A DNA stretch of 64,000 nt from DHVE2 group archaeon (lineage in GTDB: Archaea > Thermoplasmatota > Thermoplasmata > Thermoplasmatales > Aciduliprofundaceae): positions 1-64,000 of the forward strand of contig JALWRZ010000002.1 in assembly GCA_026993785.1 (NCBI GenBank), in the 5' to 3' direction. The notes under the pieces are model-generated. The model was not told the origin of the DNA. It worked only from the letters and a program-made list of their open reading frames with translations, and did not search any database. The translations under genes and the position numbers were made by a program. Each line of letters starts with the position of its first letter. Position 1 is the stretch's first letter. Of this stretch, positions 4,805 through 33,591 are shown one piece after another.

Positions 4805-5293
4805 ATGGAGCTTACTCCTCTTCAGCTCTACATCCTTCTGCATCTCAAAAAGGCAAACGTGGAATATGCCAAGATGATTTCCAAGATGACAGAAATAAAT
4901 CTGGCAGAGATCCAGGAATCCCTGGATTATCTTCTTTCCATAGGTCTTATAGAGAGGGATAAAGGCTCAGCCATAAAAAGAACCAGGGCCAGATTCAAAA
5001 GAGCCGCGGAGGTACACAAGCATCATACCTACTATAAACTCTCTAAAAGGGGGGTTCTGTTGGTAAGAAAAATAGACAGGGAATTTCTCAGAAGGTACTT
5101 CACCGAACTTCTGGGTGAGCAGGGATATGAGTTGTTTCTCAAGCTAATCTCAGCAAGAAATTTTGAGGAGGCATGCAGGGATTTTTCTAACTGCCAGAAG
5201 ATTCGAGAAAATTTTATGGAGCTGCATTTTATAACCCCAAAGGGAAATAAAACTACATTTTTTAAGAGATTTGTTCTCTTTGCCCAGCTTTGA
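4805..5293 (+). CDS. Winged-helix DUF2250-type archaeal regulator
   Basis: A 162-residue protein whose N-terminal 60 residues form a winged helix (LTPLQLYILLHL, then a recognition helix and SIGLIERDKG wing). The central part is basic, with TYYKLSKRGVLLV typical of archaeal DUF2250 proteins. Probably a DNA-binding transcription regulator; target unknown. It is divergent from glmM across a shared TATA box and converges on glmS with one base between the genes, so a role in amino-sugar gene control is possible but inferred only from position. Confidence 0.7.
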   Translation: MELTPLQLYILLHLKKANVEYAKMISKMTEINLAEIQESLDYLLSIGLIERDKGSAIKRTRARFKRAAEVHKHHTYYKLSKRGVLLVRKIDREFLRRYFTELLGEQGYELFLKLISARNFEEACRDFSNCQKIRENFMELHFITPKGNKTTFFKRFVLFAQL

Positions 5294-5294
5294 G

Positions 5295-7055
5295 TTATTC
5301 CACGGTAACGCTCTTGGCCAAATTTCTCGGCTTGTCAATCTCTCTCCCTAATATTCTCGCGGTGTGATATGCCAAAAGTTGCAGAACAACCACATTTACG
5401 AAGGGTGAGAAAATTGGTTCCACATCGGGAACCTTAATCCAAGAATTCACATATTTCTCCACCTCATCTTGAGAGGAAATTCCAATCACATAGGCGCCCC
5501 TAGCGGCAACCTCCTTTATGTTGGAAAGCATCTTCTCATAGGTTCTATCAAGAGGGGCAAGAGCAATCACGGGAACTCCACTGGATATAAGTGCCAATGG
5601 ACCATGCTTCAGTTCCCCTGCCGGGTAGCCCTCAGCGTGGATATATGAGATTTCCTTCATTTTCAAAGCACCTTCCAAGGCAATAGGATAATTTATGCTC
5701 CTGGCGATGAAGAAGATATCCCTCTTTTTGGAGATTTTCTCGGCTTCTTTGATTATTCTTCTTTCCCTTACAAGCGTGTTCTCTATCTTATAGGGTATCT
5801 TGCGAAGCCCGTTTATGAGTTCCCTGTATCTTCTCATACCTATCATTCCCCTAATTTTTGCCTGTTGAATTGCAAAGTAATAAAGCGAGGCAAGCTGTGC
5901 CGTGAAGGTTTTTGTGGCAGCCACACCTATCTCTGGACCTGCATGGGTGTACAGCACATACTCCACATAGTTAGTTATGGAACTTCCCAGCACATTTGTG
6001 ATAGCCATCGTCAGAAGTCCCTCTTCTCGTGCTTTTTTAGCCGCGCCTAAAGTATCTGCAGTTTCTCCGCTCTGCGTGATGAAGAGAGCCAAGGCATTAT
6101 CTCTAACGTTGGGTCGGTATCGGTATTCGGAAGCGTAGTAAACCTCCACAGGGATATGAAGAAGCTCCTCCATTATGTACTTTCCAACCAGACCTGCATG
6201 ATATGATGTACCGCAGGCCACGATAATTACTTTGGAGAAATCAAAATTCATATCATTCCTGGAGAATAGAGAATGCAGGGTTTCGTCCACCGCTCGAGGC
6301 TGCTCGAAGATTTCCTTGAGCATAAAATGCTCATATCCGGATTTCTCTGCATTTTCGATGCTCCATTCCACCTTTTTAACTTTCTTATCCCTTTTATTAC
6401 CCTCGAAATCGTAAATTCTAACAAAATCATCGGTTAGCTCGCAGATTTCACCATCCTTTAAAACCATAACCCGGTTAGTGTACTCAAGGAACGCGGGGAT
6501 ATCGGAAGCGATGAAATTTTCATGGTCACCTATCCCCACCACCAGGGGGCTCTCCATTTTGGCAGCCATTATTCTGCGCTCATCAGCATGAATTGCAGCT
6601 ATGGCAAAGGAACCCTTAAGTTTCTTAATCATTCTGAAAAATGCCTTCTTCAAATCACCCTCATAGAGTTCTTCCAGCAAATGTGCAATTACCTCGCTAT
6701 CGGTGTCTGAAAGGAATTTATGCCCCTTCTCAGCAAGCTCATTCTTCAGCTCCATGTGGTTTTCTATTATCCCATTGTGCACAATGGCAATTTTTCCATG
6801 GCAATCGGTGAGAGGATGCGCATTTCTATCCTCCGGCACCCCATGGGTTGCCCATCTTGTATGCCCTATGCCCAGGGTTCCATCGAAATTCACTTTGAGT
6901 TTCTCTATGTAGCCGCGTCTTTTTTCAATTTTTATTCCCTCGTTAACGATGGCAACACCTGCAGAATCGTAGCCTCGATACTCCAGCCTCTTAAGACCAC
7001 GAAGCAGTACCTCCCTGGCGCTCCTGAATCCTATGTAGCCTATTATACCGCACAT
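5295..7055 (-). CDS. glmS: Glutamine--fructose-6-phosphate aminotransferase (isomerizing)
   Basis: Makes glucosamine-6-phosphate from fructose-6-P and glutamine, the first step to UDP-GlcNAc. The N-terminal class II glutaminase starts MCGIIGYIG, giving Cys1 as nucleophile after Met removal, with LEYRGYDSAG and TRWATHG motifs. Two SIS sugar-isomerase domains follow from about residue 270 (CGTSYHAG, TQSGETADT), and the C-terminus ends with the usual KPRNLAKSVTVE. Length 586 is normal. The start follows the stop of the GlmU-like gene by one base (TGATATG), so the pair is an operon. Confidence 0.97.
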   Translation of the reverse strand: MCGIIGYIGFRSAREVLLRGLKRLEYRGYDSAGVAIVNEGIKIEKRRGYIEKLKVNFDGTLGIGHTRWATHGVPEDRNAHPLTDCHGKIAIVHNGIIENHMELKNELAEKGHKFLSDTDSEVIAHLLEELYEGDLKKAFFRMIKKLKGSFAIAAIHADERRIMAAKMESPLVVGIGDHENFIASDIPAFLEYTNRVMVLKDGEICELTDDFVRIYDFEGNKRDKKVKKVEWSIENAEKSGYEHFMLKEIFEQPRAVDETLHSLFSRNDMNFDFSKVIIVACGTSYHAGLVGKYIMEELLHIPVEVYYASEYRYRPNVRDNALALFITQSGETADTLGAAKKAREEGLLTMAITNVLGSSITNYVEYVLYTHAGPEIGVAATKTFTAQLASLYYFAIQQAKIRGMIGMRRYRELINGLRKIPYKIENTLVRERRIIKEAEKISKKRDIFFIARSINYPIALEGALKMKEISYIHAEGYPAGELKHGPLALISSGVPVIALAPLDRTYEKMLSNIKEVAARGAYVIGISSQDEVEKYVNSWIKVPDVEPIFSPFVNVVVLQLLAYHTARILGREIDKPRNLAKSVTVE

Positions 7056-29483: not shown

Positions 29484-29888
29484 TTGGTTCACAGGTACAA
29501 GAGTTACAAGGTTTATCGCGTAATCATTTTGAATCTTTTGGCACAGGAGTTAGATATAAATCTCTATCAGAAGAATCTTGAAGATAAGCTGGATTCCATA
29601 CTGGCCCGTGCGAATTATCGCATCACCAAATCTCAGATAAGACACGAGATACGAAGCAACCATAAAATGACAGAAAAAGTTCTCAGAGAGCTTGAAAGCG
29701 AGGGATTAATTGAGATGATACCTCAGGAAAGAACCACATTAGTGAGGATAACCAAAAAAGGTGTGTTACATCTTCAAAAATGGAATAGATTTTACATAAA
29801 TCTATACCGAGAGCAAATCGTGGATCATTACAGGTATGTTGGTCTTCCCAAATGGTTCAGGGAAGCATATCATGGCGAGGAGCAATGA
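29484..29888 (+). CDS. Winged-helix DNA-binding protein
   Basis: 134 residues. The middle part (about 45-100) has a helix-turn-helix followed by LESEGLIEMIP and RTTLVRITKKGVLHL, the typical wing. The start is a TTG at 29484, supported by GATTTAATAATCC about 27 bases upstream and no better in-frame start. Divergent from ftsZ2, whose control it might share; the target is unknown. Its end overlaps the next gene by 32 bases. Confidence 0.68.
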   Translation: MVHRYKSYKVYRVIILNLLAQELDINLYQKNLEDKLDSILARANYRITKSQIRHEIRSNHKMTEKVLRELESEGLIEMIPQERTTLVRITKKGVLHLQKWNRFYINLYREQIVDHYRYVGLPKWFREAYHGEEQ

Positions 29889-30624
29889 AAGGTATGAAAT
29901 CGTAGGTGCCGTCTTCCATCTCCATTACCACCTGCAGTGGTAGATTTTCCTGTTGCATCAGGAATTCATAAAGTTCATCGCTCATCTCTTGCTGTGTGGT
30001 AAGCACGATGGCTCTGCTTATCTCCACATCGCGCTTCTTACTGCATATTCTTACATCTTCAATGAATTTTTTGATATCCTCTAGGGTCAATTTTTCCATA
30101 TATCTCACAAAGAAGGAGTAGCTCTTTCGTCCCAGAAGATTGCCAAGCGCGCTTGTTTTTATCTCGGCATAGTAATCAAAATTAATATTGGTTCCACAAT
30201 CAACGCCACCTTTTAGAATAATACCCCCCCTCTTTTTTATCTCTTTTTCAAAATTTAGAGTTTTGTTGAAATAGTTTATAAGTCTCTCCACAGGGTCTCG
30301 ACCAGGTGGTATCTCTAAGCTCAATGATTCTAAATATTTGTACGCGGAATATCTGCTAATCACCTCTGCAAGCTTCTCCCTTATCTGAAGCAAATAAATT
30401 AGAACCAGAAGCACAAGAGAGATGAGGATTGCGTAGAGGATTATATCCGTAAGATTGAGATTAATAAGGGAGATGGCCCACAATCCTATGGCAACGCCAC
30501 TCCATATAATTATTAGGATTATCGCATAGATTAGCCATTTGTTGAGAAATGCGCTCTTTTTGGCAAGTTCATCCAAGGAGCTGAGAAGCGTTGTGAGAAG
30601 GTCCTCTCCTCTTCTTTCCACCAT
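29857..30624 (-). CDS. Two-span membrane protein with unknown cytoplasmic domain
   Basis: 255 residues. Two membrane helices near 28-50 and 58-80, then a soluble alpha/beta domain of about 160 residues. The stretch GGVDCGTNINFDYYAEIK followed by predicted helices faintly resembles the D-ExK core of restriction-endonuclease-like folds, but the match is weak. No family recognised. A late segment has ISRAIVLTT and PLQVVMEMEDG strands. Confidence 0.6.
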   Translation of the reverse strand: MVERRGEDLLTTLLSSLDELAKKSAFLNKWLIYAIILIIIWSGVAIGLWAISLINLNLTDIILYAILISLVLLVLIYLLQIREKLAEVISRYSAYKYLESLSLEIPPGRDPVERLINYFNKTLNFEKEIKKRGGIILKGGVDCGTNINFDYYAEIKTSALGNLLGRKSYSFFVRYMEKLTLEDIKKFIEDVRICSKKRDVEISRAIVLTTQQEMSDELYEFLMQQENLPLQVVMEMEDGTYDFIPFIAPRHDMLP

Positions 30625-30681: not shown

Positions 30682-30713
30682 ATTAGAAAGAAAGATCCCG
30701 AGAAATCGGGATC
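30682..30713 (-). terminator. Hairpin plus U-run terminator overlapping the protease 3' end
   Basis: GATCCCGA and TCGGGATC form an 8-bp stem with a GAAA/TTTC loop (30694-30713). On the minus strand it is followed by T-rich sequence across and beyond the stop codon. The stem encodes the last residues of the protease (IPISRDL). Confidence 0.6.
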
Positions 30714-33538
30714 ATGGGTGGCAGTATCTGCTCCATTGTGTAAGTTGCAGGCATAGATGGCATATGCGGAGCTTCGATTATCGCACCACTATGAACCATG
30801 CTCTTGGAGCTGGGAGTATAATGTACCAAGAAGGATGCGTCGTAGCCGGTGAAGGGCAACCAGAACCCGTACATCTTCTGCCATAGGAATCCCTTGGAAT
30901 AGGCGTTCCAGCTGGTTGCACCCCACTTGTATAGGTTACTGCTATCCCCGCCGTTCATGCTGAGTACCAGGGCATAGCTCACACCACCCTGCAAATGCAC
31001 AGGCTCGCTGAATTTAGCGGTTACCCAGGAAAGCGAGGTTCCAACATCACTGGCAGATATGTAGGTGGTTCCAAGTACATCCCCGGTCGGATATCCGCTG
31101 CTATCAAGCTCGACTATCTGAACAGTGCAATCCTTGGGCGGATTCCCTACTTTCATCATGTAGAGATCCACCGATGTAACATCTCCATCCTCGCTCAGCT
31201 GGAATGTCTGCGCCGTAGTGTAAGCATAATCTACACTGGCCACAAGATCTCCTTCCTGAGAGTTTCCTTCTGTTTTCTCATTGGGAGTCGGCCCAGGTTC
31301 CTCACCACCGGTGCTGAAGCTAAAGGAATAGTTATCTTCCATGTGAGTGCCATTGGTATCTTTGGCTGCGGTGCTTACCTTAACGGTGTATGTTGTATTA
31401 GGCTTTAGAGTCTCATTTGTATCCCTTATAGCGGCTTTGCTTCCTGTGGTATAATGCACAAGGAAGGATGCATCGTACTTTGTGTATGCATGCCAGCCAT
31501 AGAACTCATCACCGCTCTTCTGTTCTATAACTCCCTTGGAATAAACATCCCCATCTACCACTCCCCATCTGTAGCGGTTTTGGGAGTCGCCCGCGTTCAT
31601 GCTGAGCACGAGGGCATAGCTCACGCCGCCCTGCAGATGCACAGGCTCGCTGAATTTAGTGGTTACCCAGGAAAGCGAGGTTCCAACATCACCGGCAGAT
31701 ATGTAGGTGGTTCCAAGTACATCCCCGGTCGGATATCCGCTGCTATCAAGCTCGACTATTTGAACAGTGCAATCCTTGGGCGGATTCCCCACCTTCATCA
31801 TGTAGACATCTACAGATGTAACATCTCCATCCTCGCTCAGCTGGAATGTCTGCGCCGTGGTGTAAAGAGAGTATACGCTTGCAAGAAGCTTTCCTTCCTT
31901 AGAATTACCCTCCGTCTTCTCATTGGGCGTCGGTCCAGGTCCGCCGCCTTGGAGATTCAATACTATATGCGCCGAATCTCCATTAGCCTCTATTGTGAAA
32001 TTAACCGAAGGTGTTATGCTTATGGCTTCCTTGAGAGAATCCATATCCATCTCCTTACTGAAATTGATGTATATTTTGCTGAGAGTCGTAGGTACATGGG
32101 TTGCCCCATCCTTTGGATATGTGCTCACAACTTTCGGCGCTTCAGGAGTAGGTCCTGGCCCATTTCCAGAATACGTATTTGTCACTGTTCCTGGCACGGA
32201 CGCTGGAACATCGGGAGATTCGCCAGACACATCCGTGGGATTGCCTGGATCGTAGCCGTTGGCGTAATACTCTATCTTGAAGGAGGACATGGTGCCTGAG
32301 GAGGAACCGCCGATTTTCACATAGAAAGTATGGTCGCCGTTCTTCCAATCACTTTCAAACTCGCCCATGTCCATGCACATAAACTTAGGCAATGGGTAGC
32401 TACTGCCTTTCCAGAAAGCCTCACGCGAGCCACTGTTTTCTAATCCAACTGTAGCATTATCTTCCCTACTAGGCGGATTGCTGAACTTCCAAACAGCGAG
32501 TAGATGCGGATTGTTTGGCTTGGAAGCCACGGGTCTATATACCTCATTCCAATACAAATGAGTAAACGCATTGTAGGTTATCCAATAGAAGCCATGATCG
32601 CCCCAATTGGTTCCCCAGGAATTAACCACTTTAAATGCCCCTCTGTCCCCATCATCAGATACGCTATCATCATAGCCCACGATAGTTTGGGCATGATTGG
32701 GACTCCCTTGATAGGGCTGATATTCCTGCCAGGAGATTATGTAATTGCCATCGCTGAACGCAGAATCGTAGGCCTTGGCGTTTATGGCAAAGGTTACAAG
32801 AGAGCCGCTATCAATCCAGGACTTTATCACATCTATATTCTTCACAGAAGTCGTCTGGAAATCTTCAATTCTGCCTATGGGTGCACTTCTCCACGCGTCC
32901 TCGTCACCCCAGGATGTGTAATCGTTCTGGTTATACGGCATAGTGGCCCAAGATGCGCCGCCTATGGTCTTCATCACCTTGTAATGCTCGTCAAAGAAAG
33001 AGCCTTGATCTTGGCCCCCATTCACCAAGTTATATGTCCACGCAGGACTCATAATATGCTGCGTGTTTCCCTGAGAGACGTCCCTCCAGTCATGAATTTT
33101 CGCCTGGAGGAAGGTGTTACTGTAGTAGCTGGTTGCCCAACCAACGCAGGAACCCTGCTGTCCCTGATTGCCAACCGGAGGGAAATAGGGGCTCGTAGAT
33201 AGATCCGCCGATGCCCTTGGCTTGTAATTCTTCACAGATTCCACATACTCCACGCTTCCAATCATGTCCACATAGTCCTCCAGCGTGGGCGGTGCAAAAC
33301 CTGTTCCATGGCCATCAATTATCACATTGTAGTTCTTTCCGGGCTCTCTTACACCTATACTCTCCATCATATGCATTATGTCCCTGTAATTCAGGGTTCT
33401 AAGTGTATAGCTTATCCCAGATGCCTGGGAGGTTCCCTGATTAGGCATGTTTGCCGCTGCGCTTTCTGCCACCCCCAAAAAAGTGGTGGCCACCAATAGC
33501 GCCATTACAAGCGCTATCAATATCTTCCTATCCGACAT
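30683..33538 (-). CDS. Secreted papain-like (C1A) cysteine protease with Ig-like and duplicated C-terminal modules
   Basis: About 951 residues with a signal peptide (residues 1-28, ILIALVMALLVATTFLG). Prodomain-like region to about 115; peptidase C1A from about 116 to 330 with GNQGQQGSCVGW (Cys131), GSPNHAQTIVGYDD (His282) and VVNSWGTNWG (Asn306). A beta region follows, then a Big_5-type Ig domain starting near 466, interrupted at about 533-697 by a module that recurs at about 748-915. The ATG at 33538 follows GGGGTGG at good spacing; an ATG one codon earlier is possible. It would digest extracellular protein in a peptide-fermenting cell. The C-terminus lacks an obvious membrane anchor. Confidence 0.9.
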   Translation of the reverse strand: MSDRKILIALVMALLVATTFLGVAESAAANMPNQGTSQASGISYTLRTLNYRDIMHMMESIGVREPGKNYNVIIDGHGTGFAPPTLEDYVDMIGSVEYVESVKNYKPRASADLSTSPYFPPVGNQGQQGSCVGWATSYYSNTFLQAKIHDWRDVSQGNTQHIMSPAWTYNLVNGGQDQGSFFDEHYKVMKTIGGASWATMPYNQNDYTSWGDEDAWRSAPIGRIEDFQTTSVKNIDVIKSWIDSGSLVTFAINAKAYDSAFSDGNYIISWQEYQPYQGSPNHAQTIVGYDDSVSDDGDRGAFKVVNSWGTNWGDHGFYWITYNAFTHLYWNEVYRPVASKPNNPHLLAVWKFSNPPSREDNATVGLENSGSREAFWKGSSYPLPKFMCMDMGEFESDWKNGDHTFYVKIGGSSSGTMSSFKIEYYANGYDPGNPTDVSGESPDVPASVPGTVTNTYSGNGPGPTPEAPKVVSTYPKDGATHVPTTLSKIYINFSKEMDMDSLKEAISITPSVNFTIEANGDSAHIVLNLQGGGPGPTPNEKTEGNSKEGKLLASVYSLYTTAQTFQLSEDGDVTSVDVYMMKVGNPPKDCTVQIVELDSSGYPTGDVLGTTYISAGDVGTSLSWVTTKFSEPVHLQGGVSYALVLSMNAGDSQNRYRWGVVDGDVYSKGVIEQKSGDEFYGWHAYTKYDASFLVHYTTGSKAAIRDTNETLKPNTTYTVKVSTAAKDTNGTHMEDNYSFSFSTGGEEPGPTPNEKTEGNSQEGDLVASVDYAYTTAQTFQLSEDGDVTSVDLYMMKVGNPPKDCTVQIVELDSSGYPTGDVLGTTYISASDVGTSLSWVTAKFSEPVHLQGGVSYALVLSMNGGDSSNLYKWGATSWNAYSKGFLWQKMYGFWLPFTGYDASFLVHYTPSSKSMVHSGAIIEAPHMPSMPATYTMEQILPPMIPISRDLSF
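30958..31219 (-). repeat. Intragenic duplication, copy 2
   Basis: Second copy of the protease module core, near-identical to 31597-31858. The flanks encode diverged versions of the same fold, ending in YDASFLVHYT in both copies. Confidence 0.85.
31597..31858 (-). repeat. Intragenic duplication, copy 1
   Basis: Encodes about residues 561-648 of the protease, TAQTFQLSEDGDV to LVLSMN. It is almost identical in DNA to 30958-31219; most of the few differences are silent. Confidence 0.85.
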
Positions 33539-33591
33539 CATTCCACCCCAGGTAAGCTGATAACTTTCCAATACTTTAAGATTTTTGACAT
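33538..33591 (-). other. Possible 17-codon upstream ORF before the protease
   Basis: ATG at 33591 (AGGA six bases upstream) opens a frame MSKILKYWKVISLPGVE whose TGA overlaps the ATG-ATG start of the protease. This could couple translation, or be chance. It begins with MSKI like the tiny leader ORF at 3199-3222. Confidence 0.25.

Follow-up and report, generated by a model that had tools for sequence, protein, structure and literature searches.

The secreted papain-family protease encoded in the window (the whole analysed stretch of 64,000 nt of a DHVE2 group archaeon, contig JALWRZ010000002.1) contains, in its C-terminal arm, a Big_5 immunoglobulin-like (Ig) domain interrupted by an inserted module, a second copy of which follows the Ig domain. 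The interruption is conserved in two related proteins, and the two module copies of the window protein share a near-identical conversion tract. The favored explanation combines a single old insertion, an Ig domain which still folds in spite of being split, later multiplication of the module, gene conversion and a binding role of the modules, and as a whole it is given a probability of about 0.8.

The protease and its interrupted Ig domain

The protease frame (Table 1) probably starts at ATG 33541, which gives a protein of 952 aa (P0001) out of a full frame of 962 aa. The Pfam profile search placed it in the Peptidase_C1 family with 45.9 bits against a cut-off of 20.7, and its translation contains a cysteine in GNQGQQGSC, a histidine in NHAQ and an asparagine in NSWG, which we take to be the putative catalytic motifs. 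The N-terminus is hydrophobic and, as judged by eye, resembles a signal peptide. The catalytic domain is followed by approximately 100 residues without a Pfam match, the N-terminal piece of the Ig domain, the nested module (M1), the C-terminal piece of the Ig domain, the trailing module (M2) and a short tail. A PGPTP linker precedes the Ig domain and each of the two modules (regions of window positions 31297, 31942 and 32176), and in the same-genome paralogue described below it is present before the Ig domain only. The neighboring gene on the minus strand (29857–30624) has likely membrane stretches, as judged by eye, and gave no Pfam match at E 0.001.

Table 1. Features of the protease gene (window positions).
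Feature	Position	Strand	Basis or remark
Protease open frame (secreted, papain-family)	30683..33571	minus	frame open; Peptidase_C1 match
Papain-family (C1) catalytic domain	32570..33187	minus	Pfam match, residues 129–334 of the 962-aa frame
Big_5 Ig domain, N-terminal part	31955..32143	minus	Big_5 profile 3–68
Nested jelly-roll-like module M1, 159 aa	31436..31912	minus	profile/alignment, fold match
Near-identical tract in M1	31594..31865	minus	partner of 30952–31223
Big_5 Ig domain, C-terminal part	31310..31420	minus	Big_5 profile 69–105
Trailing module copy M2, 156 aa	30803..31270	minus	profile/alignment
Near-identical tract in M2	30952..31223	minus	258/272 nt match 31594–31865
C-terminal tail	30686..30790	minus	in the paralogue, a related tail directly follows the Ig C-half

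The Pfam search with the whole protein matched Big_5 (PF13205) twice, as complementary pieces. Scanned alone, the N-terminal piece (31943–32176) reached 40.0 bits and the C-terminal piece (31310–31435) 36.1 bits against a cut-off of 23.6, and together they cover the whole profile of 105 positions. The gap between the two matches (31421–31954) corresponds to 178 codons and contains the module. The alignment with uninterrupted Big_5 domains from the phylum shows a TLTFTP-type strand directly followed by a short loop and then by L..NTTYTVTI, and in the window Ig domain the strand AHIVLNLQ is separated from the resumption at LKPNTTYTVKV by the insert, which occupies that loop. By Ig naming this would be the E–F loop, between the last-but-two and the last-but-one strands. 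The interruption of the Ig domain proposed in the earlier note is thus confirmed by two complementary profile pieces, each above the cut-off by itself, and the residue numbers given there fit the protein starting at ATG 33541 (LKPNTTY near 711, SFST near 744).

Comparison of the window protein with its paralogue gave dN values of 0.28 for the Ig N-half, 0.22 for the Ig C-half, 0.23 for the module and 0.14 for the protease part, the synonymous changes being saturated or nearly so, which indicates that both Ig halves are conserved as protein. The structure prediction suggested in the earlier note was run for the split Ig domain (276 aa, alignment of 3 rows) and for residues 456–952 (2 rows), but the AlphaFold models obtained from such shallow alignments were weak (pLDDT 52.4 and 45.1, pTM 0.45 and 0.32), with pLDDT below 60 across nearly all of the Ig part and with the module part alone usable, so that packing of the two halves was not visible in them. 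The two structural searches listed matches to the module, and in none of their rows were the Ig halves matched to an Ig domain; this does not count against an Ig fold. From homology and purifying selection, we infer that the Ig domain still folds from both halves around the inserted module.

The module and the conversion tract

The second module copy reported in the earlier note after the Ig domain is present, with 124 of the 156 aligned protein positions (79%) identical to the nested copy: 87 of 92 inside the conversion tract and 37 of 64 outside it. The predicted fold of the module resembles a jelly-roll-like beta-sandwich. In the structural search, the module part of the AlphaFold model matched the baseplate protein ORF65 of phage phi812 (Z 13.9, rmsd 2.9, 137 aligned residues), the central fibre of mycobacteriophage Douge (Z 11.5, rmsd 3.9, 143 aligned), Cwp84 with its lectin-like domain (4ci7/4d59; Z 10.7–11.0, best rmsd 2.8 with 130 aligned) and PHR domains (Z 9.5, rmsd 3.0–3.3, 116–126 aligned; for 3gbw rmsd 3.3 with 126 aligned), and carbohydrate-binding modules followed at lower Z. 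ORF65 (a DUF4815 protein, 9euf/9euj) was also the only convincing solved relative by sequence (E 4.7e-8) and is therefore the closest one in both respects, yet it is a phage baseplate protein and not a protease. Its 137 module-aligned residues span 358 residues (9euj chain G 585–942, judged from the endpoints only), so the ORF65 domain homologous to the module may itself carry an insert.

Single modules remained below the cut-offs of the Pfam families that they approached. For DUF4082 (PF13313), M1 scored 22.0 and M2 21.6 bits against 28.4, and the whole protein passed with 34 bits when the two stretches were combined; for PHR (PF08005), M2 scored 18.3 bits against 23.6, with no listed match for M1 and 25.7 bits for the whole protein; for Lectin_like (PF18560), M2 scored 13.0 bits against 27, and this family was not found in the genome of the window or in that of the second genus described below (G012). 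Judging from the fold resemblance, the modules likely bind a surface glycan or a substrate, holding the protease there.

The similarity of the two copies is concentrated in a tract with 94.9% nucleotide identity, flanked by stretches of 56% (80 nt) and 70% (87 nt). Third codon positions agreed at 81 of 91 sites inside the tract and at 26 of 56 outside (p 3e-8), and a three-segment model improved the likelihood by 37.7 log units, as compared to at most 11.8 in 100 shuffles. Since third positions of the same region agreed only by 25–65% between the window protein and its paralogue, protein constraint does not explain the tract identity. All this speaks for recent conversion between the copies and not for a recent duplication: the sharp tract boundaries and the third-position contrast suggest that the nested and the trailing modules are older copies recently made alike, and likeness confined to 272 nt does not date their duplication.

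Relatives and the order of events

The protease was found in 14 of the 61 genomes searched (its own included) in combination with various C-terminal domains, and the split Ig domain in only three proteins: the window protein, a paralogue in the same genome (C3:144766–147546) and the protease of G012, which represents another genus of the same family (locus L002, the same record as L030, JAADDK010000088.1, "Euryarchaeota archaeon isolate L_MaxBin.117"). This record was also the only named relative in the genome-contig search. The window protein has the order Ig N-half, module, Ig C-half, module; the paralogue has Ig N-half, module, module, Ig C-half and a tail related to the window tail; and the G012 protease has an extra stretch after the protease part, followed by Ig N-half, module, Ig C-half and a hydrophobic C-terminus. 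As judged by eye, the latter consists of a hydrophobic stretch and a basic tail resembling a membrane or sortase-type anchor, and the tail shared by the window protein and the paralogue is free of an anchor-like stretch. All three are cut alike, with Big_5 stopping at profile positions 67–69 and resuming at 69–73. The paralogue is adjoined on contig C3 by a Ku gene (150.5 bits) with a gene for an ATP-dependent DNA ligase directly after it (117.2 and 78.6 bits; L021:4195–4950 and 4940–5878), a pair which in bacteria serves non-homologous end joining.

Big_5 was detected in 6 of the 117 genomes of the order with 11 matches, six of which are the halves of the three split proteins and five single unbroken stretches. 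It is present in 105 of the 389 genomes of the phylum, where the matches listed were nearly all full-length and in one piece; the surveys of the phylum and of the class (60 genomes) list the best-scoring matches, and low-scoring split domains could be missed by them. The Ig domain of the window protease belongs to the same family as these, in a split form. The module profile matched in 3 of the 117 genomes of the order (one weakly) and in 43 of the 389 of the phylum. The modules of the three split proteins match each other at E 1.5e-76 or better, and the matches outside them are at 1.3e-20 or weaker. Among 44 module-bearing open frames, the 16 with a Big_5 match all trace back to the three split proteins, as overlapping copies, and the remaining ones had no Big_5 match, the flanks around most module-bearing loci being short (approximately 1.5 kb). 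Neither the module nor the split region had a relative among the viral contigs searched, the plasmid search gave no relative, and of the 336 phage records matched, 333 of them named Staphylococcus, none covered 80% of the query.

It is very unlikely that the two pieces are separate domains, i.e., a truncated Ig domain and another domain such as fn3, although no confident model has them packed and fn3 matches the C-terminal piece weakly (14.9 bits, cut-off 25). That piece by itself matches exactly the part of the Big_5 profile which the N-terminal piece lacks, the same complement recurs in three proteins despite insert lengths of 178, ~319 and 156 residues, and both pieces contain invariant residues common to all three. 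An assembly error between near-identical repeats has a negligible probability: the copies do share the near-identical tract, but 14 of its 272 sites differ and the copies diverge to either side of it, the frame is open, and the same nesting exists in the paralogue and in the genome from the second genus. That related modules were inserted independently in the lineages of the window and of G012 is improbable, if somewhat favored by the protease tree (19 rows, built without L012, L014 and L018, which are fragment loci, and without a match in G007 at C1:741552 that lacked a locus), in which the single group of split proteins received only 72/46 and appeared in 68% of 200 bootstrap trees and in which L003, L004 and L022, with other C-terminal domains, stand about as near. 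Against it argue the use of the same Ig loop and the close mutual similarity of the modules compared to the next ones in the 389 genomes of the phylum. One origin of the split is compatible with this tree, which supports it weakly and falls short of proof.

A nested module is present in all three split proteins and a trailing copy in one, the window protein; the paralogue (two nested modules) and the G012 protease (one) do without it. Nesting is thus probably old and the trailing copy derived, i.e., the insertion probably came first and the multiplication later. The reverse order, with a trailing module copied into the Ig domain, is suggested by the wording of the earlier note and might be expected from the strong likeness of the two copies in the window protein, but it has little probability given this distribution, the restriction of the likeness to the converted tract and the module tree. 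In the latter (10 of 14 possible modules used as the outgroup), a branch (81/87) sets the five modules of the three proteins apart, and the window M2 clusters with M1 of the window protein and the first module of the paralogue (91/98), the tree including the converted tract. Outside the tract, the window M2 is identical to the window M1 at 37/64 positions, to the first paralogue module at 39/63 and to the second one at 31/62, and the window M1 to the first paralogue module at 41/63. Of the earlier note's interpretation, the nested-domain insertion is supported by the complementary halves and by two other proteins being interrupted at the same place, while duplication as the cause of nesting is not supported. 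As a speculation, a tandem duplication of the module together with the Ig C-half, followed by the loss of the second C-half, would yield the window order.

According to the favored explanation, a jelly-roll-like module would have interrupted the Big_5 Ig domain once, in the E–F loop and before the parting of the window-genome and G012 lineages. The Ig domain, folding from two halves, would act as a spacer and display the module sideways with both ends tethered. The module would then have multiplied in two ways, as a tandem pair inside the Ig domain in the paralogue and as a second copy after it in the window protein, whose copies would later have exchanged sequence by conversion. The modules may anchor the enzyme on its substrate or on a surface glycan, as their fold resemblance suggests.

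Comparison with known systems and significance

Domain insertion has been found in 20.23% of multidomain proteins in a 2026 survey (PMC13114784), so that the window case is a well-resolved example of a known phenomenon. It resembles the A1-B-A2 architectures of that survey in that one domain interrupts another that still folds, and adds to them nested copies which are shared and vary in number; immunoglobulin, Ig-like or jelly are not mentioned in its main text. The Clostridioides difficile protein Cwp84 is likewise a papain-family protease equipped with a "lectin-like" beta-sandwich domain, but there the domain separates the protease from the Pfam 04122 repeats, with no Ig nesting described in the part of the publication considered (PMC4089489) and with the function of the lectin-like domain left open by the authors. 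No report on nested or inserted Ig domains or on Big_5 combined with DUF4082 was found in the literature, the coverage of which was partial and does not prove their absence.

What is new here is one more insertion case with unusually clear intermediate states, and no new biological principle is shown by it. It also cautions that highly similar repeat copies may stem from gene conversion and not from recent duplication, and the split-Ig scaffold could serve protein design. More tentatively, and with a rather low probability, the E–F loop may be an open mounting slot accepting one or two jelly-roll modules without loss of the Ig fold, with conversion between nested and trailing copies retuning the binding on a constant scaffold. 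For this protease family, one insertion is caught in three states (one nested module, two nested, and one nested plus one trailing) in three related proteins, and therefore the sequence of steps, as well as how much the Ig loop tolerates, can be read and tested.
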